From: a virus
Reading direction: 5' to 3' (one strand)
IMG/VR virus record: IMGVR_UViG_3300046454_000714
Coordinates: 23,528-87,527 of that record
Length of the DNA stretch: 64,000 nt
Shown: in pieces, positions 31,336 through 64,000 of the stretch
How the letters are laid out: the number at the start of each line of letters is the position of its first letter
Numbering within the stretch: the first letter of the stretch is position 1
Program-made: the position numbers and the translations under genes
The notes under the pieces: model-generated
What the model saw: only the letters and a program-made list of their open reading frames with translations
What the model was told of the DNA's origin: nothing
Databases searched by the model: none

Positions 31336-33327
31336 GTGGCCGTCGAGACGCAGGCGCACCAGGACATCATCGACGCCTATGGCCGGTCTCAGCAGCGGGC
31401 TGTCATCCAGACGACGGTGACGCTGCAGCGGCTGTGGAAGGAGCTTGCGGCCACGGATCTCTCACGGTCGTGGCTCGGGGGTCTGGGTGCGGCGATGGTG
31501 CGGGCCGTGTCGGCCGGCCAGTTGGTGGCGGCGTCGACGGGCCAGAAGTACATCGAGGCGATGGTCCGCGGGGATGGGCTGGGCAACAACTACATGGAGC
31601 AGGCGTCGCATGTCGACGCCCGCTCGTTCTCGGGTGCCGCGTCGGACGGCCGGGCGCTGGACAGCCTGCTGTATCTGCCGGTGATTCGCACGAAGACGCT
31701 GATCGGTAACGGGCTGACGTTGCAGGAGGCGATGCTCGGCGGCAGGGCCCAGCTCTTGCAGGTGGCCGCTTCGGAGGTCGCGGATGCGGGCCGTGGTGCG
31801 GCCAGTGTGTCGATGATCGCGAACCGGTCGGTGACGGGCTACGTGCGGACTGTCCGCTCGGGGGCCTGTGCGCGGTGCGCGATTCTCGCTGGCCGCTGGT
31901 ACCGGTGGAATGCCGACTTCGAACGGCACAAGAGGTGCTTCCCCGCCGGTGTCGTCGTGTCAGGCCCGCGCACGCTGGCGGCCACGCGGCGGCGGTATGA
32001 GGGGGAACTCGTCATCCTCACGACGGCGAGTGGCCAGGAGCTCCCCGCCACCGGCAATCACCCGATACTGACGCGACGCGGCTGGGTCGCTGCCAATCTC
32101 ATCCAGGAAGGCGACGAGGTAGTCCGCAGCCTCCGGCCGGAGGGCGCTGCGCCCCTCGTAGTCCCAGATCATCAGCAGATGCCATCCCGCATCGAGGATG
32201 TATGGGCTACGGAGAGCGTGGCGGGCGTGCTTCGCGGCGTGCCAACCACCGCCGAGGATTTCCACGGCGACGGAGGCCACGGCGAAGTCGACGTTGTAGG
32301 GCCCAACCGCTTTCTGTGGGGTGAAGTCGAGGCAGCGCTCGCGCAGCATCTGGGCGAAGAGGTCCTCACCGTCGGAGCGTTGGGCTCGATCGGCATTCCG
32401 CTCTCGGCTCAGCGCGGCCACTTTGAGCGTGTCACCGGAGATCGGTTTGCCGCGGACGGCGTCATGGGCGGCCTGCGTGATCCTGGCCCGCTCCTCGGGG
32501 CTGGCCTTGGACATGCGCAGGGCATTGGCTTCAGCGCGGTCGCGGAGATGCGTCCCGGCCTGCTTGAGGTGGCGCCGCACGACGCCTCGCATGACGCCAT
32601 AGCGGATGGATATGGACTGTTCGCTCTCTCCGCTCTCGTAGGCGGCAACGAGTTCAGCGGTGGGGAGATCTATGGCGCAGGGCCGCGGTGGGATGCCGCG
32701 GGCCTGGCGGGCTCGATGGAAGACGCTGAGCGAGATGCCCGAGTTGGCCGCGAGCTCCTTGAGCGGCTCGCCGGACAGGTAGAGCTCGATCGCGTGGTCG
32801 AGGCGCGCAGGGTCAGTTGGTCCGGGCATGTGTATGACCTCAATTCGACAGAGGGCTGGTTCAACGCGAACGGCCTAATCGTATCTAACTGTCAGTGCTA
32901 CGGGGTGCCAGCTACAGAGGCTCGCCCGGGCCGTCACACGAACCCGATGTCGTTCTTTCAGGGTCTGTCGCGCGCGGAGCAGGATCGCCGGTTCACGATC
33001 GGCGGCGCGGAGGCGATCCGGAACGGCGCCGACATCTACTCGGTGGTGAACGCGGGCCGTTCGACGATCACGCTGGACGCCTACGGCAAGAAGGTCGTGG
33101 CGACGCTCGAAGGCACGACGAAGCGCGGCGCGTTCTACCAGCAGATGCTGCGTGAGGCCGAGCAGCGCACCGGGCAGAGGTTCGCCCGGAACGGCTACGA
33201 CCTGGAGCGTGGCCTGCCCCGCTTTCACCTGCGGACGCCACGGCTCACGCCCGGCGAGATCCTGCGTCTCTCGGATGACCGTAACGAGCTGATCCGCCTG
33301 CTACGGCGTTTCGGCTACCTGTCGTAG
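31336..33327 (+). CDS. MuF-like minor head protein interrupted by an intein
   Basis: 663 codons; the mature protein after splicing would be 345 residues. The N-extein (1-200) is helical and carries C-A-R-C (178-181) and F-E-R-H-K-R. The C-extein begins C-Q-C-Y-G-V-P (519 onward), so the intein interrupts the conserved R-H-x-x-C-x-C motif of MuF proteins. MuF proteins sit inside the head near the portal. The start is GTG 31336, 2 bp after the portal stop. The protein cannot mature without splicing. Confidence 0.88.
   Translation: MAVETQAHQDIIDAYGRSQQRAVIQTTVTLQRLWKELAATDLSRSWLGGLGAAMVRAVSAGQLVAASTGQKYIEAMVRGDGLGNNYMEQASHVDARSFSGAASDGRALDSLLYLPVIRTKTLIGNGLTLQEAMLGGRAQLLQVAASEVADAGRGAASVSMIANRSVTGYVRTVRSGACARCAILAGRWYRWNADFERHKRCFPAGVVVSGPRTLAATRRRYEGELVILTTASGQELPATGNHPILTRRGWVAANLIQEGDEVVRSLRPEGAAPLVVPDHQQMPSRIEDVWATESVAGVLRGVPTTAEDFHGDGGHGEVDVVGPNRFLWGEVEAALAQHLGEEVLTVGALGSIGIPLSAQRGHFERVTGDRFAADGVMGGLRDPGPLLGAGLGHAQGIGFSAVAEMRPGLLEVAPHDASHDAIADGYGLFALSALVGGNEFSGGEIYGAGPRWDAAGLAGSMEDAERDARVGRELLERLAGQVELDRVVEARRVSWSGHVYDLNSTEGWFNANGLIVSNCQCYGVPATEARPGRHTNPMSFFQGLSRAEQDRRFTIGGAEAIRNGADIYSVVNAGRSTITLDAYGKKVVATLEGTTKRGAFYQQMLREAEQRTGQRFARNGYDLERGLPRFHLRTPRLTPGEILRLSDDRNELIRLLRRFGYLS
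31936..32889 (+). other. Intein within the MuF-like protein (318 residues)
   Basis: It starts at Cys201 (C-F-P-A-G, block A), has a block B T-G-N-H-P-I-L-T about 40 residues later, and ends with V-Y-D-L-N-S-T-E-G-W-F-N-A-N-G-L-I-V-S-N before the +1 Cys519 (blocks F and G). The penultimate residue is Ser, not the usual His. The middle about 190 residues lack LAGLIDADG or HNH motifs on this strand; a nuclease gene lies antisense across it. Confidence 0.88.
31960..32829 (-). CDS. Antisense Vsr-like homing endonuclease nested in the intein
   Basis: 289 residues on the opposite strand, lying entirely inside the intein. GAGGT lies 8 nt before ATG 32829. Residues 1-115 hold repeated helix-turn-helix units (E-L-V-A-A-Y-E-S-G-E-S-E-Q-S-I-S). 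A K-A-S-P-E-E-R-A-R-I linker follows. The catalytic part has Y-N-V-D-F-A-V, V-A-V-E-I-L-G-G-G-W-H and Y-I-L-D-A-G-W-H-L-L-M-I-W, the D...E pattern of Vsr/DUF559-type nucleases. Residue composition and ordered motifs show it is a real protein, not a shadow frame. It would cut intein-free alleles to spread the intein. Confidence 0.82.
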   Translation of the reverse strand: MPGPTDPARLDHAIELYLSGEPLKELAANSGISLSVFHRARQARGIPPRPCAIDLPTAELVAAYESGESEQSISIRYGVMRGVVRRHLKQAGTHLRDRAEANALRMSKASPEERARITQAAHDAVRGKPISGDTLKVAALSRERNADRAQRSDGEDLFAQMLRERCLDFTPQKAVGPYNVDFAVASVAVEILGGGWHAAKHARHALRSPYILDAGWHLLMIWDYEGRSALRPEAADYLVAFLDEIGSDPAASRQYRVIAGGGELLATRRREDDEFPLIPPPRGRQRARA

Positions 33328-52706: not shown

Positions 52707-52997
52707 GTGGCTGAGCCGACGGCTGGCGAAGTCAACCGAAGGCTTGACGACGTCCGGCAAGACCTGAAGGACGACGTGCGCGACCTCAGCGCCCGACTCG
52801 GGGAGAAGGTCAACCAGGAGGGCTACGACGTCCGGCACGCCGCACTCCTCGCCCGCGTCGTCGCCCTCGAAGCGCAGCGGGAGAAGGATGCCGAGAAGGT
52901 TGCGGCGATGCGCCGCTGGTGGGTCGCCACGATCATCGTGCCGATCGTCATCGTCCTTCTCCAGGCGTACCTCAGTTCCAAGGGGGCGGGCTCTTGA
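52707..52997 (+). CDS. Coiled-coil protein with C-terminal membrane span
   Basis: 96 residues from GTG 52707. A heptad helix (R-R-L-D-D-V-R-Q-D-L-K-D-D-V-R) is followed by one span (W-V-A-T-I-I-V-P-I-V-I-V-L-L). Layout matches accessory holins or antiholins found after endolysins in actinophages. Confidence 0.7.
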   Translation: MAEPTAGEVNRRLDDVRQDLKDDVRDLSARLGEKVNQEGYDVRHAALLARVVALEAQREKDAEKVAAMRRWWVATIIVPIVIVLLQAYLSSKGAGS

Positions 52998-53737
52998 GCG
53001 CGCGGCGTATCCCGGCGGCCACCAAGGAGCGGCGCCGGGACGGGGTCTTCGTGGTCGCCTTGGTGGCCGGGGTGTCGGTGCTGGCCTGGGTTGTCATCAC
53101 CATGCAGGGCCTCTCCCACGACCTGCGGGTCTCCAACCAGGCCCGAGATGCCTTGGCCCGCCAGGTGCAGTCCCTCGGACATAAGCCGGTCGCCGGACCG
53201 CCCGGGTCACGCGGCGAGGCAGGCGCATCAGTCGTCGGCCCGCGCGGACCCAAGGGCGACACGGGGGCGTCGGGTAAGCCGGCGCCCACCATCACGCCGA
53301 AGCCGGGCACATCTGGCGCGTCCGGGTCCCCGGGAAAGCCGGGCGCCGACTCGACAGTGGCTGGCCCGACCGGTCCGCCGGGGGCAGACTCGACGGTTGC
53401 CGGACCCCAAGGCGAGGCAGGCGTGGCCGGGCCCGTCGGCCCCCAAGGCGACCGCGGCGAGAAGGGCGACACCGGGGACACGGGCGCGACCGGCCCGGCA
53501 CCGTCCGGCTGGACGTACACGGACGGCGCGGGCGTCACCTACACGTGCACGCCCGACTCGGACGGCTCCACCCACTACACGTGCACAGCCGCCCCGGTGA
53601 GTCCCACACCCAGCCCGTCGAATCCCGAGTCCGCGGTGCTGGTGCTCAGTGCCGCGCTCGCCCGCAGGAGGATCGATGCCCCGAGCAGTACCCGCGGCCG
53701 TCACCGGGCGGTCCGCCACCGCGGTGCCCACCGCTGA
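52994..53737 (+). CDS. Collagen-like membrane protein
   Basis: 247 residues from TTG 52994 (TTGA overlap). One membrane span (about 16-36) anchors an interrupted Gly-x-y collagen stretch (G-P-P-G-S-R-G-E-A-G, G-P-K-G-D-T-G, G-P-Q-G-D-R-G-E-K-G-D-T-G). The end has a Cys-containing beta segment (Y-T-C-T). Collagen repeats are more usual in phage fibres; here the protein ends the lysis cassette. It may be displayed on the host surface or act in lysis. Confidence 0.7.
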   Translation: MSARRIPAATKERRRDGVFVVALVAGVSVLAWVVITMQGLSHDLRVSNQARDALARQVQSLGHKPVAGPPGSRGEAGASVVGPRGPKGDTGASGKPAPTITPKPGTSGASGSPGKPGADSTVAGPTGPPGADSTVAGPQGEAGVAGPVGPQGDRGEKGDTGDTGATGPAPSGWTYTDGAGVTYTCTPDSDGSTHYTCTAAPVSPTPSPSNPESAVLVLSAALARRRIDAPSSTRGRHRAVRHRGAHR

Positions 53738-53888
53738 ACCGGCCCCGCGCCAGCCCCGCCGCGATACCGCCGCGGCCGACGCCGGTTCGCTGGAACACGC
53801 GGGCCGCCTCGACCCGCAGCCGGTCCCGGCGCCCAGCATCAGCCCGTTCCTGCCGCCCGACCTGCCGCCGTATGAGGAGGACGACTGA
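53676..53888 (+). CDS. Small Pro-rich protein
   Basis: 70 residues from ATG 53676 (AGGAGG 4 nt upstream), overlapping the tail of the collagen-like gene in another frame. Basic then Pro/Asp-rich, ending L-P-P-Y-E-E-D-D. The strong ribosome-binding site is the main support. Confidence 0.55.
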   Translation: MPRAVPAAVTGRSATAVPTAEPAPRQPRRDTAAADAGSLEHAGRLDPQPVPAPSISPFLPPDLPPYEEDD

Positions 53889-53960
53889 CGGGCCCTCACG
53901 CCACCGGCTGCCCCTCCATGCCGGTTGCCCCGTCCGCCCCGGCTGGAAGGGGGTGACCCT

Positions 53961-54005
53961 GTGCTGCATCTGTTCCTGCACCTCGTCGTACTCGTCTGCC
54001 TCTGA
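53961..54005 (+). CDS. 14-residue hydrophobic micro-ORF (tentative)
   Basis: GTG 53961 follows GGAAGGGGG. The peptide V-L-H-L-F-L-H-L-V-V-L-V-C-L would be fully membrane-embedded. It lies between the last late gene and its terminator. Tiny size makes this speculative. Confidence 0.3.
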   Translation: MLHLFLHLVVLVCL

Positions 54006-54015
54006 CCAGCACGAC

Positions 54016-54067
54016 AACGCCCCCGCCCTTCTCGCTGCCATCTGGCGGCGCGGAGGGCGGGGGCGTT
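54016..54067 (+). terminator. Main late-operon terminator
   Basis: AACGCCCCCGCCC and GGGCGGGGGCGTT form a perfect 13-bp outer stem around an inner GC stem, followed by TTCG. It closes the late operon. Confidence 0.85.
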
Positions 54068-54092
54068 TCGCTGTGCGGCTATCGTTCGGGAA

Positions 54093-54123
54093 GGTCCCCG
54101 CCTGTTAGAGGCAGGCGGGGACC
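54093..54123 (-). terminator. Terminator of the leftward three-gene cassette
   Basis: GGTCCCCGCCTG and CAGGCGGGGACC form a perfect 12-bp stem with a 7-nt loop, 11 bp past the stop of the leftward gene. Convergent with the late terminator. Confidence 0.8.
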
Positions 54124-54133
54124 GCTTGCCGAC

Positions 54134-54673
54134 TCATGCGACCTTCCGTGTCTCCGTCTTGTTGCACTTCGAGCAGCGGCGGATCTGGACCGGGCCTTTC
54201 CAGGTGCCGAGCTTCGGGAGCAGCGGGGAGTCGTAGGTGGCCTCCGCGTCCTGCCACGCTCCCCACTTGTGGATGTGAAGGCCGGGTGCCGCAGGCTCGC
54301 TGGTCCGCGTCACGTTCGGCGGCTCATCCGGGACATCCTCGACGCGCTCGTCGGGGACGGTCGCGGCGACGCTGGCCACGATCTCCGCATGCCCGGTACG
54401 GGCTTCGGCCTCGGTATGCCACCGCCACTGACTCTGGTCCTGCTCCTCGCCGCCACCGAACACCATGGTCTCGAACAGGATCGGCTGGCCTCCACCCCAG
54501 TTGTGGTCGACGCCGAGCCACACCGTGGAGACTCGGAAGCTGACCTCCGGGTCGCTGGTCGACGTGATCTCGGTGAGGGCCACGCGCTTGTACGCCATGT
54601 CGCCGAGCAGGGCGTTGGCCTGCTCAGAGTTGATGGGCTGACCTTGGCGGTCGTACCAGAGCTGCTGATTCAT
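54134..54673 (-). CDS. Hypothetical protein with C-terminal zinc motif
   Basis: 179 residues, last gene of the leftward cassette. N-terminal W-Y-D-R-Q-G-Q-P-I, a beta-rich middle with T-V-W-L-G-V-D-H-N-W-G-G-G, and R-R-C-S-K-C-N-K-T at the C-terminus. No family recognised. It starts 2 bp after the upstream stop. Confidence 0.6.
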   Translation of the reverse strand: MNQQLWYDRQGQPINSEQANALLGDMAYKRVALTEITSTSDPEVSFRVSTVWLGVDHNWGGGQPILFETMVFGGGEEQDQSQWRWHTEAEARTGHAEIVASVAATVPDERVEDVPDEPPNVTRTSEPAAPGLHIHKWGAWQDAEATYDSPLLPKLGTWKGPVQIRRCSKCNKTETRKVA

Positions 54674-54675
54674 GG

Positions 54676-55116
54676 TCACGCTCCCTGCTTCTCGGCGCGC
54701 TGGGTGTCGTAGCTGATGAACCCGATGCGCGCGGCTTCGACGGCCAGCGTCTCCCGCCATCCGTCCGGCGCCGGGTAGTCCTCGCTCTCGCCGTCGCCCC
54801 GGTAGAAGAGGAACGGTGCGTCGGTGCCAGAGGTGGTGATGAACTCGATGCCGAGCCGTTTGGCGTCGGCGACGAGCGCGTCCACGGCGATGCTCAGTCC
54901 GCTGCGGGTCTTGGCGTCGCGCACCGGATACCGCGTGTGCAGGTGGCCCTCGGTGGAGACGAGCCCGGCGTCCGGGTCGTCGTCGTTGAACCCGTCGTCG
55001 CAGTAGTCGAGCGACGCAGCCCACCCCGGGTACGGGATGCCGTCGATGCGGGTAGCGAACTCCGAGTAGGTGACGGTGATGCCGGTGGACCAGTAACGGC
55101 CCGACTTGCTGATCAT
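54676..55116 (-). CDS. Hypothetical protein
   Basis: 146 residues starting in an ATGA overlap with the first cassette gene. S-K-S-G-R-Y-W-S-T-G-I-T-V-T and a R-G-D-G-E-S-E-D-Y-P-A-P-D-G-W segment; alpha/beta with an Ala-rich helix. Not recognised. Confidence 0.6.
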   Translation of the reverse strand: MISKSGRYWSTGITVTYSEFATRIDGIPYPGWAASLDYCDDGFNDDDPDAGLVSTEGHLHTRYPVRDAKTRSGLSIAVDALVADAKRLGIEFITTSGTDAPFLFYRGDGESEDYPAPDGWRETLAVEAARIGFISYDTQRAEKQGA

Positions 55117-55514
55117 GCGGTCTCCTTCTTCGCGTCGATGATTTCGCGGATCCTGTCGAGCTTCTCCTCGGCGCTGAGCGCTCCGAGGTTGCCGTCGGCG
55201 AGGCCGTCGAGGATGCGGCGGACGTTGACGCGTTCGGGGTAGAGGACGGCGTCGAGGATGGCGGCGCGGGTGCTGCCGTCGCGGAGGTAGACCCAGACCT
55301 CGTTGTGCTGGCGCGGCTCGACGTTGCAGCGGGCGTCGAGGATCTCGCGCGGGAAGTAGCCGAGGTCGGAGCCTTCGAGTTCTTCGCCGATCTCGGTGAG
55401 GATGTACTTGCCGAGCTTGCGGTAGCCGAGTTCGGTGCGGAGGTCTCCGAGGTTGACTCTGGTGAGGCCGCCCTCTTCGACGCAGCGGGCATGGATCGCT
55501 TGCAGGTTGGACAT
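55113..55514 (-). CDS. Hypothetical winged-helix-like protein
   Basis: 133 residues; ATG 55514 (GGAAGG upstream) is preferred over 55529. L-G-D-L-R-T-E-L-G-Y-R-K-L-G-K-Y-I and V-W-V-Y-L-R-D-G-S-T-R are reminiscent of a small winged helix. First gene of the cassette, directly after a strong promoter; a regulator or accessory (moron) factor is possible. Confidence 0.6.
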   Translation of the reverse strand: MSNLQAIHARCVEEGGLTRVNLGDLRTELGYRKLGKYILTEIGEELEGSDLGYFPREILDARCNVEPRQHNEVWVYLRDGSTRAAILDAVLYPERVNVRRILDGLADGNLGALSAEEKLDRIREIIDAKKETA

Positions 55515-55551
55515 GTGGTCGCCTTCCATGTTCTATCTCTAGCGTTGCCAC

Positions 55552-55580
55552 ACTATATTTGCGGCATGCGGATAAAACAA
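55552..55580 (-). promoter_or_regulatory. Strong leftward promoter for the three-gene cassette
   Basis: On the minus strand TTGTTT and TATAGT are exactly 17 bp apart, in an AT-richer patch than the surroundings. It is close to consensus for a housekeeping sigma factor, so expression in the lysogen is plausible. Confidence 0.75.
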
Positions 55581-55669
55581 GGGGCGACTCGAAACGTGAA
55601 CCGAGGGGAGTGGCGTCGAGGCGCAACGCCCCACGCGGCGCAGCGAGTTGGGGTGCCACGATGCGTGAC

Positions 55670-55705
55670 TGTCCAACTAACGATCGATAGTTGGTTAGTT
55701 GGACA
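55670..55705. promoter_or_regulatory. res-like recombination site upstream of the resolvase
   Basis: TGTCCAACTAAC and GTTAGTTGGACA are perfect 12-bp inverted arms around a 12-bp centre. The arms fit the TGTCY...TA half-site of Tn3-family resolvases. Further TGTCC/GGACA half-sites follow at about 55731, 55753 and 55780. Confidence 0.65.
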
Positions 55706-55812
55706 CGTGAGGGTCGAAACGGACATACCTGTACTCGCGGTTGTCCAAAAAGGCTGTACAGAAAGTCTCAATGTCCATGTACTAGGCATGACCCTTTGTT
55801 AGACAATGAAGC

Positions 55813-56466
55813 ATGGAACTCAACTCCCCAGACCTCCTCGCGCCAGTCGGCGGGGGAGGGGCCCTCGTCGGCTACGCCCGCGTCAGCACCAAGGGCCAAC
55901 TCCTCGACCGACAGATCGCAGCCCTCGAAGCCGCCGGATGCCAACGGATCTTCAGCGACAAGAAGTCCGGCAAGAACACCGAGCGCGAGGAGCTCTGGAA
56001 GGCCCTCGACTACTCGCGCGGAGGCGACACCATCGTCGTTCCATCGCTCGACCGCCTCGGTCGCTCCATCCAAGACCTCATCACCATCGTCGCCAGCCTC
56101 CGCGAGCGCGCCATCGGCTTCCGCTCCCTGCACGAGTCCCTCGACACCACCACCCCCGGCGGCCGGCTCGTCTTCCATGTCTTCGCCGCCCTCGCCGAGT
56201 TCATCCGCGAACTCATCGTGCAGGGCACCCATGAGGGCCTCGCAGCTGCGCGCGCCCGCGGGCAGCGACTCGGTCGGCCGCCGGCGATGGCTGAGGAGCA
56301 GATCCGCCACGCGTACACGATGCTCACCGACCCCGAGGCGTCCATCACCTCGATCGCCAAGCTCCTCGGCGTCAGCCGCACCACGATCTACAAGTACGTG
56401 CCCGAACTCGCGGCCGGGCGAGCCTCCCTCGTGTCCGCCACCGGCCGCAAGGAAGTCACGTCATGA
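55813..56466 (+). CDS. Serine resolvase (Tn3 family)
   Basis: 217 residues. The catalytic domain begins V-G-Y-A-R-V-S-T (Ser nucleophile). V-P-S-L-D-R-L-G-R-S and L-A-E-F-I-R-E-L-I follow. The C-terminus is an HTH domain (I-A-K-L-L-G-V-S-R-T-T-I-Y-K-Y). Length and motifs are complete. It could resolve dimers of an extrachromosomal form or invert a local segment. The res-like site lies just upstream. Confidence 0.9.
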   Translation: MELNSPDLLAPVGGGGALVGYARVSTKGQLLDRQIAALEAAGCQRIFSDKKSGKNTEREELWKALDYSRGGDTIVVPSLDRLGRSIQDLITIVASLRERAIGFRSLHESLDTTTPGGRLVFHVFAALAEFIRELIVQGTHEGLAAARARGQRLGRPPAMAEEQIRHAYTMLTDPEASITSIAKLLGVSRTTIYKYVPELAAGRASLVSATGRKEVTS

Positions 56467-56942
56467 CGCCCGCACCTGTGTGTTGGGGCTGGCCCACTGA
56501 ACTGCCGACCACAGAGGGCGTCCGGCAGAAGTTCCTCGCGGACGCCGAACGCAAGGGGTGCACGCCGGGGCAAGCCGGAGTTCTGTGGGACCTTGAGCTT
56601 GCCGCAGACGCACTCATCGGTGGCGATGACGGCGTCCTGGCTCGCTGGCAGGACGGCCGGTGCGCGATCTGCGGGCGGGTGCGCGACCTCGTCCTCGATC
56701 ATGACCACGCGACGGGTCTCGTGCGCGGCTGGCTCTGCAACTCCTGCAACACCACAGAGGGAACGAACCAGGAGCCGGACACCATCTTCTCCCTATACCG
56801 AGAGCGCCACCCGGCGGTGATCCTCGGCCTCACGATCCGCTACCTCAACCCCATCACCGGCGAGTACGCCACGCCGCAGCTCGCGACTGAGGTCGACTGG
56901 GATGAGAAGTGGACCGACGCGGCCTCGGAGGGCATCCTGTGA
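56463..56942 (+). CDS. Recombination endonuclease VII-like nuclease, second copy
   Basis: 159 residues overlapping the resolvase stop by 4 bp. C-A-I-C-G, V-L-D-H-D-H-A-T-G and V-R-G-W-L-C-N-S-C-N form the full zinc and catalytic core of the family; N-terminal helices recognise DNA. It is distinct in flanking sequence from the copy at 406-984. Confidence 0.88.
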   Translation: MTPAPVCWGWPTELPTTEGVRQKFLADAERKGCTPGQAGVLWDLELAADALIGGDDGVLARWQDGRCAICGRVRDLVLDHDHATGLVRGWLCNSCNTTEGTNQEPDTIFSLYRERHPAVILGLTIRYLNPITGEYATPQLATEVDWDEKWTDAASEGIL

Positions 56943-57202
56943 CCCGCAACGACACCTGGAACGGTGAACCCCTGGACCGCGTCAGCGAAGTCCATGACCA
57001 TGCCGCGATCCACTACCGCATCCATGACGTCGACGGCGGCAGGCTGCTGGCGTTCGGCACGGCACGGCCGGGGCCGCGCGGTTGGTTGGACATCGCCGCG
57101 CACTATCGTCAGGTACAGGCAGCGCATCCTGGTCTTTTTCTTGTGCTTCGTGAGTACGACGCCGAGGCGGGAGGCGACTTCGGTCGAGAGGTCGGACCGT
57201 AG
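56939..57202 (+). CDS. Small hypothetical protein
   Basis: 87 residues from GTG 56939 (GTGA overlap). Beta strands with H-Y-R-I-H-D-V-D-G-G-R-L-L-A-F and A-H-P-G-L-F-L-V-L-R-E-Y. Part of the resolvase operon. Unknown. Confidence 0.55.
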   Translation: MTRNDTWNGEPLDRVSEVHDHAAIHYRIHDVDGGRLLAFGTARPGPRGWLDIAAHYRQVQAAHPGLFLVLREYDAEAGGDFGREVGP

Positions 57203-60932: not shown

Positions 60933-61379
60933 TCACCGAAGCCCCGCCACCGCGCGGGGCTTCGGCATGTCAGCCCTCGGCGGGCGGCTTGGTGGCGAGG
61001 GGCCGGTGCAGTTGACCGCCCAGCCGGAAGCCGTGAATGCCCACCCGGCCTCGCGCGCCTGCCGCATCACGGCATCCAGGGTCAGCGGTCGACCGGCGGC
61101 ATCGACGAACAAAGGCCCCTCGGTTCGACCTTCGATGAGCATCCGCAGCGCGACAGCAGACGTCGGCGAGAACGGGGCCGCCTTCGGGGCGCCCTGCTTC
61201 GGGAACTCCACAACAACGGTCCGGGCCCTCAGGTCGACGTCCCGCACATCCAGCGACAGCAGGTCGTCCCGCCGCAGGTTGCCCTCCCAGAGCAGCGCCC
61301 ACAGCACCCGGTGTGCGAACGGGATCGACTCGTCGGCGACCAACTGGAGGTAGCGGTCGCGGGTGATGGGTTCGGTCAT
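60933..61379 (-). CDS. Truncated tyrosine-recombinase-like protein
   Basis: 148 residues. A-L-L-W-E-G-N-L-R-R-D-D-L-L-S-L-D-V-R-D-V-D-L matches the first catalytic block of tyrosine recombinases (with Arg), and L-T-L-D-A-V-M-R-Q follows. The H-x-x-R and Tyr blocks are missing and the C-terminus runs into terminator sequence. It probably cannot recombine DNA; a DNA-binding or decoy role is possible. Confidence 0.6.
   Translation of the reverse strand: MTEPITRDRYLQLVADESIPFAHRVLWALLWEGNLRRDDLLSLDVRDVDLRARTVVVEFPKQGAPKAAPFSPTSAVALRMLIEGRTEGPLFVDAAGRPLTLDAVMRQAREAGWAFTASGWAVNCTGPSPPSRPPRADMPKPRAVAGLR
60936..60965. terminator. Terminator after the four-gene operon
   Basis: CCGAAGCCCCGC and GCGGGGCTTCGG form a perfect 12-bp stem. 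It overlaps the last codons of the leftward recombinase-like gene. Confidence 0.75.
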
Positions 61380-62226: not shown

Positions 62227-62472
62227 TCAGCTGCCCCCGAGGAGGTCTGTCACGTGGACTCGCAGCGCGTGCGCGATGAGCAGGAGATCCGCGTACCTCG
62301 GGTCCGTGACCGCATTCTCATACCGCTGCACGGTCCTTCGCTCTACGCCGGCGAGGTTCCCTAACTGCTCCTGGGAGAGTTCCGCGGCGCGGCGGAGGTC
62401 GGCGATGCGCTTACCGAGGGCGATCTGGCGGGCGCGGACCCAGTCGGGTCTCGTGTTGCGGCGGGCTGGCAC
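62227..62472 (-). CDS. XRE-family repressor
   Basis: 81 residues. R-I-A-D-L-R-R-A-A-E-L-S-Q-E-Q-L-G-N-L-A-G-V-E-R-R-T-V-Q-R-Y-E is a complete lambda-Cro/XRE helix-turn-helix with a short C-terminal helix. It lies next to the integrase side of the element and is a candidate lysogeny or integrase regulator. Confidence 0.75.
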   Translation of the reverse strand: MPARRNTRPDWVRARQIALGKRIADLRRAAELSQEQLGNLAGVERRTVQRYENAVTDPRYADLLLIAHALRVHVTDLLGGS

Positions 62473-63056: not shown

Positions 63057-64000
63057 TCATTCTTCGTCCTGGGAGATTTCTGGGAGATCCACTTTCGGTC
63101 CGCGCTCCGAACGCCGCGGGCGAGGCTCCTCCCACTCCCGGTGGTGGTCCTTCACTCCCGCCGAGGCCTCCCACAGCTTCTGCAGATCCGCCGCGATGTC
63201 CAACTCCATCGGCAGCGTCGTGTGGCTGTAGGTCCCCTCAACTCCAGGGATAACGTGCCGCATCCGCTCCTCGACCGCAACCCTCGGATGCTTCAGCTCA
63301 TCGAGCCACACCTTCATGCTGTGGCGCAGGCCGTGCGGCACCATGTCCTCGATCCCGGCGACCGCCTTCATGTCCGGCAGCCGCGCGGGCCGGCCGAGCT
63401 TGTCCGGCGTGGCCGTGTGGCCATCGACCCAGCGGCGCCAGATGTCCGAGTAGAAGTAGGCAGACGTCGACATCTTCTTGCCGTTGGCCGACGGGAACAC
63501 CCACGGCGACTTGTGCGAGGCCAGCACCTCGCGCAGCAGCTCCGCGAGGAACGGCGGCAGGACGATGCTGCCCGAACTCCCGTACTTCGGATCGACCTGG
63601 GCCGGCTTGCCGTCGACGTACTGGTGCTGCTCCTCCACCAGTAGCCGGAAGCCCTGCCCGTGGTCTTCGAGGACCAGATGTTCCCGGCGCAGGCCGGCCG
63701 CCTCGGATATGCGCAGCCCGCAGTAGGCGATTGTGAGGACGAGGCCGTAGCCGACGACGCCGCGCATCTCCCGGGCGTTGCGGGCCAGCAGCAGGGCCTG
63801 GCGCGGGGTCGCGAGGACAGTGTCGTCCTTCTTCGGCTTGCCCTTGTACTTGCCGCGGCGGCGCGCCTTCAGGGTGGGGACCGGGTTGTCGGCGCGGACC
63901 TTCGAGGCGACGGCGTCGTCGAACATGACCCGCATCACCGACATGACCGACTTGACATAGCGGGGCTTGTACCGCTTACGCAGCTGCTGCTCCCAGATCT
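63057..64000 (-). CDS. int: Tyrosine-family integrase, N-terminus beyond the window
   Basis: 314 codons are visible and the frame continues past the edge. C-G-L-R-I-S-E-A-A-G-L holds the first catalytic Arg; V-P-H-G-L-R-H-S the H-x-x-R; and G-V-E-G-T-Y-S-H-T-T the Tyr. A basic C-terminal tail follows. It would catalyse site-specific integration and excision. The attachment site is not identified but may lie near 62.5-63 kb or off the window. Confidence 0.9.
   Translation of the reverse strand, partial: IWEQQLRKRYKPRYVKSVMSVMRVMFDDAVASKVRADNPVPTLKARRRGKYKGKPKKDDTVLATPRQALLLARNAREMRGVVGYGLVLTIAYCGLRISEAAGLRREHLVLEDHGQGFRLLVEEQHQYVDGKPAQVDPKYGSSGSIVLPPFLAELLREVLASHKSPWVFPSANGKKMSTSAYFYSDIWRRWVDGHTATPDKLGRPARLPDMKAVAGIEDMVPHGLRHSMKVWLDELKHPRVAVEERMRHVIPGVEGTYSHTTLPMELDIAADLQKLWEASAGVKDHHREWEEPRPRRSERGPKVDLPEISQDEE

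Follow-up and report, generated by a model that had tools for sequence, protein, structure and literature searches.

What are three short leftward genes doing between the end of a phage late operon and a serine resolvase gene? The window analysed here, a stretch of 64,000 nucleotides, forms the final part of a virus record of 87.5 kb and has a genome GC content of 68.5%. Its rightward late operon comprises a large terminase gene (with a weak TerL match), tail genes and lysis-type genes, and the nearest annotated phage match in this late region is Streptomyces phage Kromp (a capsid-region match, 72%). The contig that carries the three genes, here called A, B and C, also holds integrase and Cro/CI-type HTH genes (Table 1), and we treat the window as part of a Streptomyces temperate siphophage or prophage that would, we infer, be capable of lysogeny. 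Genes outside the A-B-C region were called with a simple caller, so that small ORFs there are approximate. An Rfam scan of positions 53500-57000 returned no match.

Layout and putative transcription signals of the A-B-C unit

The first-pass annotation had described a self-contained leftward cassette of three tightly packed genes with its own signals, and these elements are all present: the three ORFs, a promoter-like motif and terminator hairpins. A and B overlap by ATGA, and 2 bp separate B from C; use of an alternative start at 55529 would lengthen A to 138 aa. The GC3 of the three genes is 0.87-0.92, as real genes in a genome of this GC content should show, and homologues of each are found elsewhere; on the strength of codon bias and homologues, we regard A, B and C as real genes. 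Their overall GC content (66-68%) equals that of the phage genes (mean 68.2%, sd 2.5), and the composition shift often seen with morons is thus absent.

Table 1. Coordinates of the A-B-C unit, its signals and its neighbours in the window.
Feature	Position	Strand	Remarks
Last late-operon ORF (proline-rich)	53676..53888	+	convergent left neighbour of the slot; outside the unit
Double-hairpin terminator module	54011..54126	-	116 bp; 12-bp hairpin at 54093-54123 and 25-bp hairpin at 54016-54067
Gene C	54134..54673	-	179 aa; two-domain fusion
Gene B	54676..55116	-	146 aa; acidic (pI 4.5); family 'MISK(S/T)GRYWSTGITV...'
Gene A	55113..55514	-	133 aa; first gene of the unit; predicted winged-helix protein
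Putative promoter TTGTTT-17-TATAGT	55552..55580	-	37 bp before the start of A
Putative resolvase site region (res)	55670..55805	+	TGTCC-type repeats and dyad
Small serine recombinase (resolvase)	55813..56466	+	217 aa; PF00239, E 1.8e-41; PF02796 (HTH_7), E 1e-10
Endonuclease VII/HNH-type nuclease	56463..56942	+	PF02945, E 1.3e-16; outside the unit
Second integrase-like ORF	60933-61379		right part of the window
Cro/CI-type HTH gene	62227-62472		right part of the window
Tyrosine integrase	63057-63944		right part of the window

The two promoter elements, TTGTTT (55580-55575) and TATAGT (55557-55552) with a 17-bp spacer, are present as had been described, but the term 'near-consensus' was an overstatement: they match the sigma-70 consensus TTGACA/TATAAT at 8 of 12 positions (3/6 and 5/6), the pair scored under the cut-off of a promoter scan, and a score of 8 is common in shuffled sequences (p = 0.29). 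The promoter is backed by conservation and not by its consensus match, because the same motif recurs upstream of A relatives. A TTTTAT-N14-TATRNT motif, which in the window reads TTTTAT-N14-TATAGT, is found 33-39 bp before the start codon of A homologues in the window and in three further lineages, those of loci L009/L011, L054 and L024/L025; its summed score was 77 (shuffled sequences averaged 54 and reached 60 at most), for a motif derived from the scored sequences themselves. An imperfect TGCCGCA/TGTGGCA repeat over the -10 element was considered as an operator, and this reading was dropped because the repeat is not conserved in relatives.

Downstream of C, the 12-bp terminator hairpin that had been annotated before has a perfect stem and a fold z of -4.65 relative to shuffles, and lacks a U-tract. 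It lies within a conserved module together with a larger hairpin, which is probably what had been called the late terminator. BLASTN recovered the full module from L004 and L006/L055 (77-83% identity) and its right part from L099 (80%), and an exact pattern scan added L158 and L160. It follows leftward strings that differ in their last genes, lying directly 3′ of B in L004, 3′ of B and further small ORFs in L006/L055, 3′ of a 297-aa gene in L099, and after other genes in L158 and L160. Since the module ends leftward accessory strings of such varied content, it belongs to the frame of the cassette, and the larger hairpin, which shares this module, is the terminator of the cassette at least as much as that of the late operon. 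The cassette had been placed between the late terminator and the resolvase; the late operon on the left and the resolvase on the right are indeed its neighbours, whereas the hairpin that was probably meant by 'late terminator' is also part of the cassette module.

Cargo and boundaries of the slot in related loci

The resolvase gene, which is divergent from A-B-C, is the fixed right neighbour of the slot, and its product has the catalytic domain and C-terminal HTH_7 domain of its class. An Endonuclease VII/HNH-type nuclease is encoded 3′ of the resolvase in the window and in L081, L162 and L170. The TGTCC-type repeats between a dyad and the resolvase gene look like a res region, which we refer to as putative. 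In the window the dyad is CCAACTAACGATCGATAGTTGG, at 55673-55694, with one mismatched pair; that of L107, CCATCAATCGATCGATTGATGG, is a perfect palindrome and differs from the window dyad on both sides. Further loci were found by pattern scans for the dyad or the neighbouring repeat, and the dyad lies 143-144 bp upstream of the resolvase start in all ten (in the window by coordinates), not all of which are independent because some may be close relatives (L167/L168, L164/L169).

The DNA on the two sides of this dyad is conserved to very different degrees. Across the nine non-window loci, the mean pairwise identity in 20-bp blocks is 91% at the dyad (position 0) and 65% at -20, mostly 61-80% to the right of the dyad, and no more than 24-30% at -40 and farther out. 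Between loci, the DNA that begins about 20 bp left of the dyad and extends through the resolvase is mostly 60-90% identical, and beyond -40 bp identity is at background level. When the window was compared with L107, whose resolvase is 84% identical, similarity set in abruptly at 55663 and ran at 83% through the resolvase.

To the left of the dyad, the position occupied by A-B-C in the window is taken by members of a lipoprotein family in L107 (in place of A-B-C) and L170, by PASTA proteins in L162 and L168, by a Ro60/TROVE protein in L163 (Pfam TROVE, E 7.5e-14), by an HTH protein in L164, by a Phd-like antitoxin in L166 (a sub-threshold Phd match) and by almost nothing, a 54-aa ORF, in L169. 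In L122, L130 and L134 the late end leads straight to a resolvase of another type. A-B-C is, as is the case for morons, an insertion between genes that adjoin each other or are differently filled in relatives. Comparison between loci shows different cargo in one frame, flanked on one side by the late-operon end and on the other by the putative res site and its small serine resolvase. On the right the frame ends sharply, just beyond the conserved dyad; the double-hairpin module at the 3′ end and the promoter-like motif before A are conserved as well. A slot with the resolvase and dyad as its fixed right boundary is new here and goes beyond what the first-pass annotation could see.

The left side of the slot was surveyed with a holin-like late gene as query, which gave 80 late-operon ends. 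In 20 of the 29 non-duplicate loci with a proline-rich last late ORF, the next gene is leftward, and a clear lipobox is found at the start of eight of these 20 genes; among the leftward genes, the largest families encode a lipoprotein (13 members) and a membrane-anchored protein (6). The slot's contents support the view that it elsewhere carries genes of lysogenic-conversion type, for instance lipoproteins and PASTA lipoproteins. Few of the 63 leftward genes at equivalent positions in the 80 related loci had PADLOC matches, mostly to single members or generic domains, and we rejected a reading of the slot as a defence island on this ground; one clear restriction-like domain was present among these genes (GmrSD_N in L099). 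Ro60/TROVE-type genes occur in or near the slot at L163:3324-4982, L158:1017-2645 and L009:2986-4644, the last two being assigned by sequence similarity.

The three proteins and their separate distribution

AlphaFold2 run on 11 sequences gave a model of A with a pLDDT of 83 and an H-E-H-H-E-E-H topology, which fits the winged-helix order H1-S1-H2-H3-S2-wing-S3, and A is thus predicted to be a winged-helix protein. It has no Pfam match, and Foldseek against the PDB found nothing at E <= 0.001 (best E 0.7), the weak matches including winged-helix proteins. Prophages and actinobacterial plasmids encode homologues of A, as do 5 of the 296 Streptomyces genomes sampled, and relatives also stand alone on chromosomes and plasmids; families only remotely like A (the L036 type) consist of conserved single genes of uninformative context. 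A 175-aa ORF that by eye resembles the DUF3800 type and has no Pfam match comes after the A homologue at L030:1486-2446.

The B family is acidic throughout (pI 4.3-5.4). Its model is confident (pLDDT 82), and Foldseek against the PDB and viral structures gave no match at E <= 0.001. Viral contigs and 3 of the 296 Streptomyces genomes contain homologues, and more remote ones are carried by a Mycolicibacterium plasmid and a Brevibacillus plasmid. The B homologue of an isolate-genome prophage (L005:6001-6423) has an in-frame stop after residue 16.

C joins two parts that elsewhere are separate small genes in the accessory strings of Streptomyces, Rhizobium, Mesorhizobium and Pseudomonas phages. 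The N-terminal domain carries a conserved VSTVFLGxDH...LFETM motif and belongs to a family found in phages of unrelated hosts and on plasmids of Aeromonas and others. To it is fused a ribbon-like Cys-x2-Cys domain of 47 aa, which Streptomyces phages such as Navo encode by a separate gene. The whole of C was found only in the window, and a search of the 296 Streptomyces genomes with the C sequence, run without a positive control, gave no match.

When A, B and C were compared with Pfam, PHROGs, NCBIfam and PADLOC, the sole match was that of the C-terminal part of C; PADLOC yielded no defence-family match at E up to 1, and a sequence search of the PDB found nothing significant. The earlier statement that none of the products is recognisable consequently stands for B, and for A by family search, but has to be amended for C, the last 47 residues of which match phrog_12110 and phrog_21493, both function-unknown families. 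None of the three products was assigned to virion structure, and the first-pass reading is supported in so far as A-B-C is a self-contained unit set in a slot for accessory genes of a prophage-type genome. All three proteins are soluble, unlike the slot's lipoproteins.

Besides the window, only L009/L020 (an S. qinglanensis prophage) has A next to B. B occurs without A in L002-L004, L006-L008, L010, L017-L019, L027 and L028, and A without B in L011, L023-L025, L030 and L054. In several loci B overlaps its preceding gene by ATGA; in two of these the overlap is with the stop codon of the resolvase gene (L003:5390-6426 and L019:4426-5420), so that resolvase and B form one rightward string there. 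That A and B mostly have other neighbours, and that the whole of C is present only here, argues against an obligate pair and for a stack of separately mobile genes. As part of the explanation that we favour below, A, B and C would have been put together from such genes and would not form one obligate system.

These distributions also bear on the idea that A and B are a toxin-antitoxin pair with C as a third component. Two short overlapping genes, the first encoding a predicted winged helix, would suit such a pair, and a remote A-like ORF (117 aa) does lie between a PhdYefM antitoxin and a ParE toxin gene at L039:1159-2135. However, the two genes of a type II system are kept together across genomes, and A and B are usually apart; moreover, the L039 neighbourhood was not seen again in the other genomes searched, and the B of L005 is broken by a stop. 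We consider this idea very improbable and rejected it, given that A and B are seldom together and the L039 arrangement did not recur.

Interpretation and comparison with known systems

We assign a probability of about 0.62 to the explanation that A-B-C is an exchangeable moron-type accessory unit in a cargo slot of Streptomyces temperate siphophages, the function of the cargo being putative; a role in lysogenic conversion or against other phages is plausible. The unit would be transcribed separately from the late operon, leftward from the promoter of A and as far as the double hairpin, as the comparison of loci suggests, and probably also in the lysogen. A may be a winged-helix DNA-binding regulator, perhaps of its own promoter, while B and C could act as soluble effectors, altering either the host or the course of infections by other phages. 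Against this explanation stand the weakness of the promoter by consensus, together with the derivation of its motif from the sequences that support it, the unshifted base composition, and relatives of B that adjoin the terminase (L017) or sit among replication genes (L018), where expression is likely to be lytic.

Morons of the lambdoid type are extra transcription units of temperate phages in which a composition shift is typical but not required. Like them, A-B-C is an additional, putative transcription unit set among conserved genes; it carries a promoter-like motif and terminator-like hairpins, and relatives lack it or have something else in its place. It differs from them in having the base composition of its genome, in comprising several genes and not one, and in occupying a fixed slot that adjoins a resolvase and putative site. 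The nearest worked example for the slot is, in our analysis, the diverse segment by the immunity/integration region of Cluster N mycobacteriophages, which holds 3-9 lysogenically expressed genes, some of them defences (PMC9262239). Both consist of variable accessory genes at a defined place between conserved modules of a temperate actinobacteriophage, but the slot of A-B-C is bordered by a small serine resolvase gene, some 7 kb away from that of the integrase, and no defence model was matched by A, B or C.

The analogous place of the Cluster N segment (PMC9262239) is one argument for a narrower version of the favoured explanation, namely that A-B-C is a prophage-expressed anti-phage cassette acting by superinfection exclusion or abortive infection. 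A further one comes from the lipoproteins that occupy the slot elsewhere: some members of this class, such as Ltp of TP-J34 (PMC3952083), are proven to act in superinfection exclusion. As in the Ltp type, the genes in question would be prophage genes outside the lytic programme, and in related prophages no leftward occupant of the slot is more common than the lipoproteins; A, B and C, however, are soluble and not lipoproteins. The missing PADLOC matches of A, B and C, the few among the equivalent-position genes and the single clear restriction-like domain there also speak against this version, which we regard as unlikely. We would call it just as doubtful that the three are early lytic genes for host takeover or counter-defence that came to lie at the late-operon end by chance. 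Relatives of B do occur in replication or early-type strings (L018, L007, L008) or just before the terminase (L017), and the parts of C are small accessory-string genes in several phages; but A-B-C faces the late operon with a promoter-like motif and terminator of its own, other occupants of the slot include lipoproteins and a TROVE protein, and A relatives are not confined to phages, standing alone on chromosomes and plasmids as well.

The resolvase and dyad site could go beyond marking a boundary. Recombination between res sites of co-resident prophages or plasmids would then swap the DNA to the left of the dyad, homology at the double-hairpin module providing a second boundary, and the pair would constitute a dedicated device for cargo exchange; we consider this rather improbable. 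Resolvase/res modules, each a small serine recombinase with an adjoining site, are known from Tn3-type transposons and plasmids. The module here is similar in its HTH-containing serine recombinase and the TGTCC-type inverted repeats directly upstream, and dissimilar in that no transposase or terminal repeats were recognised beside the slot and in that the putative site marks the edge of exchangeable cargo. If the pair is such a device, prophages would reshuffle accessory genes as cassettes, and A-B-C would represent one cargo among many. With so sharp a boundary at a recombinase site, resolvase-driven cargo exchange by phages becomes testable. On the favoured explanation of an exchangeable accessory unit, three anonymous genes become one entry in a catalogue of slot cargo, and reading this position across many Streptomyces-type prophages allows accessory genes to be collected and their functions screened together.

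Two further features were observed in the window. A 663-aa ORF that follows a portal-like gene (31336-33327) contains an insertion that resembles an intein, a candidate whose C-terminal ...FNANGLIVSN is followed by C. A collagen-like Gly-X-Y repeat protein (52919-53737) adjoins the lysis-type genes, and proteins of this kind recur at the late-operon end in many related loci.
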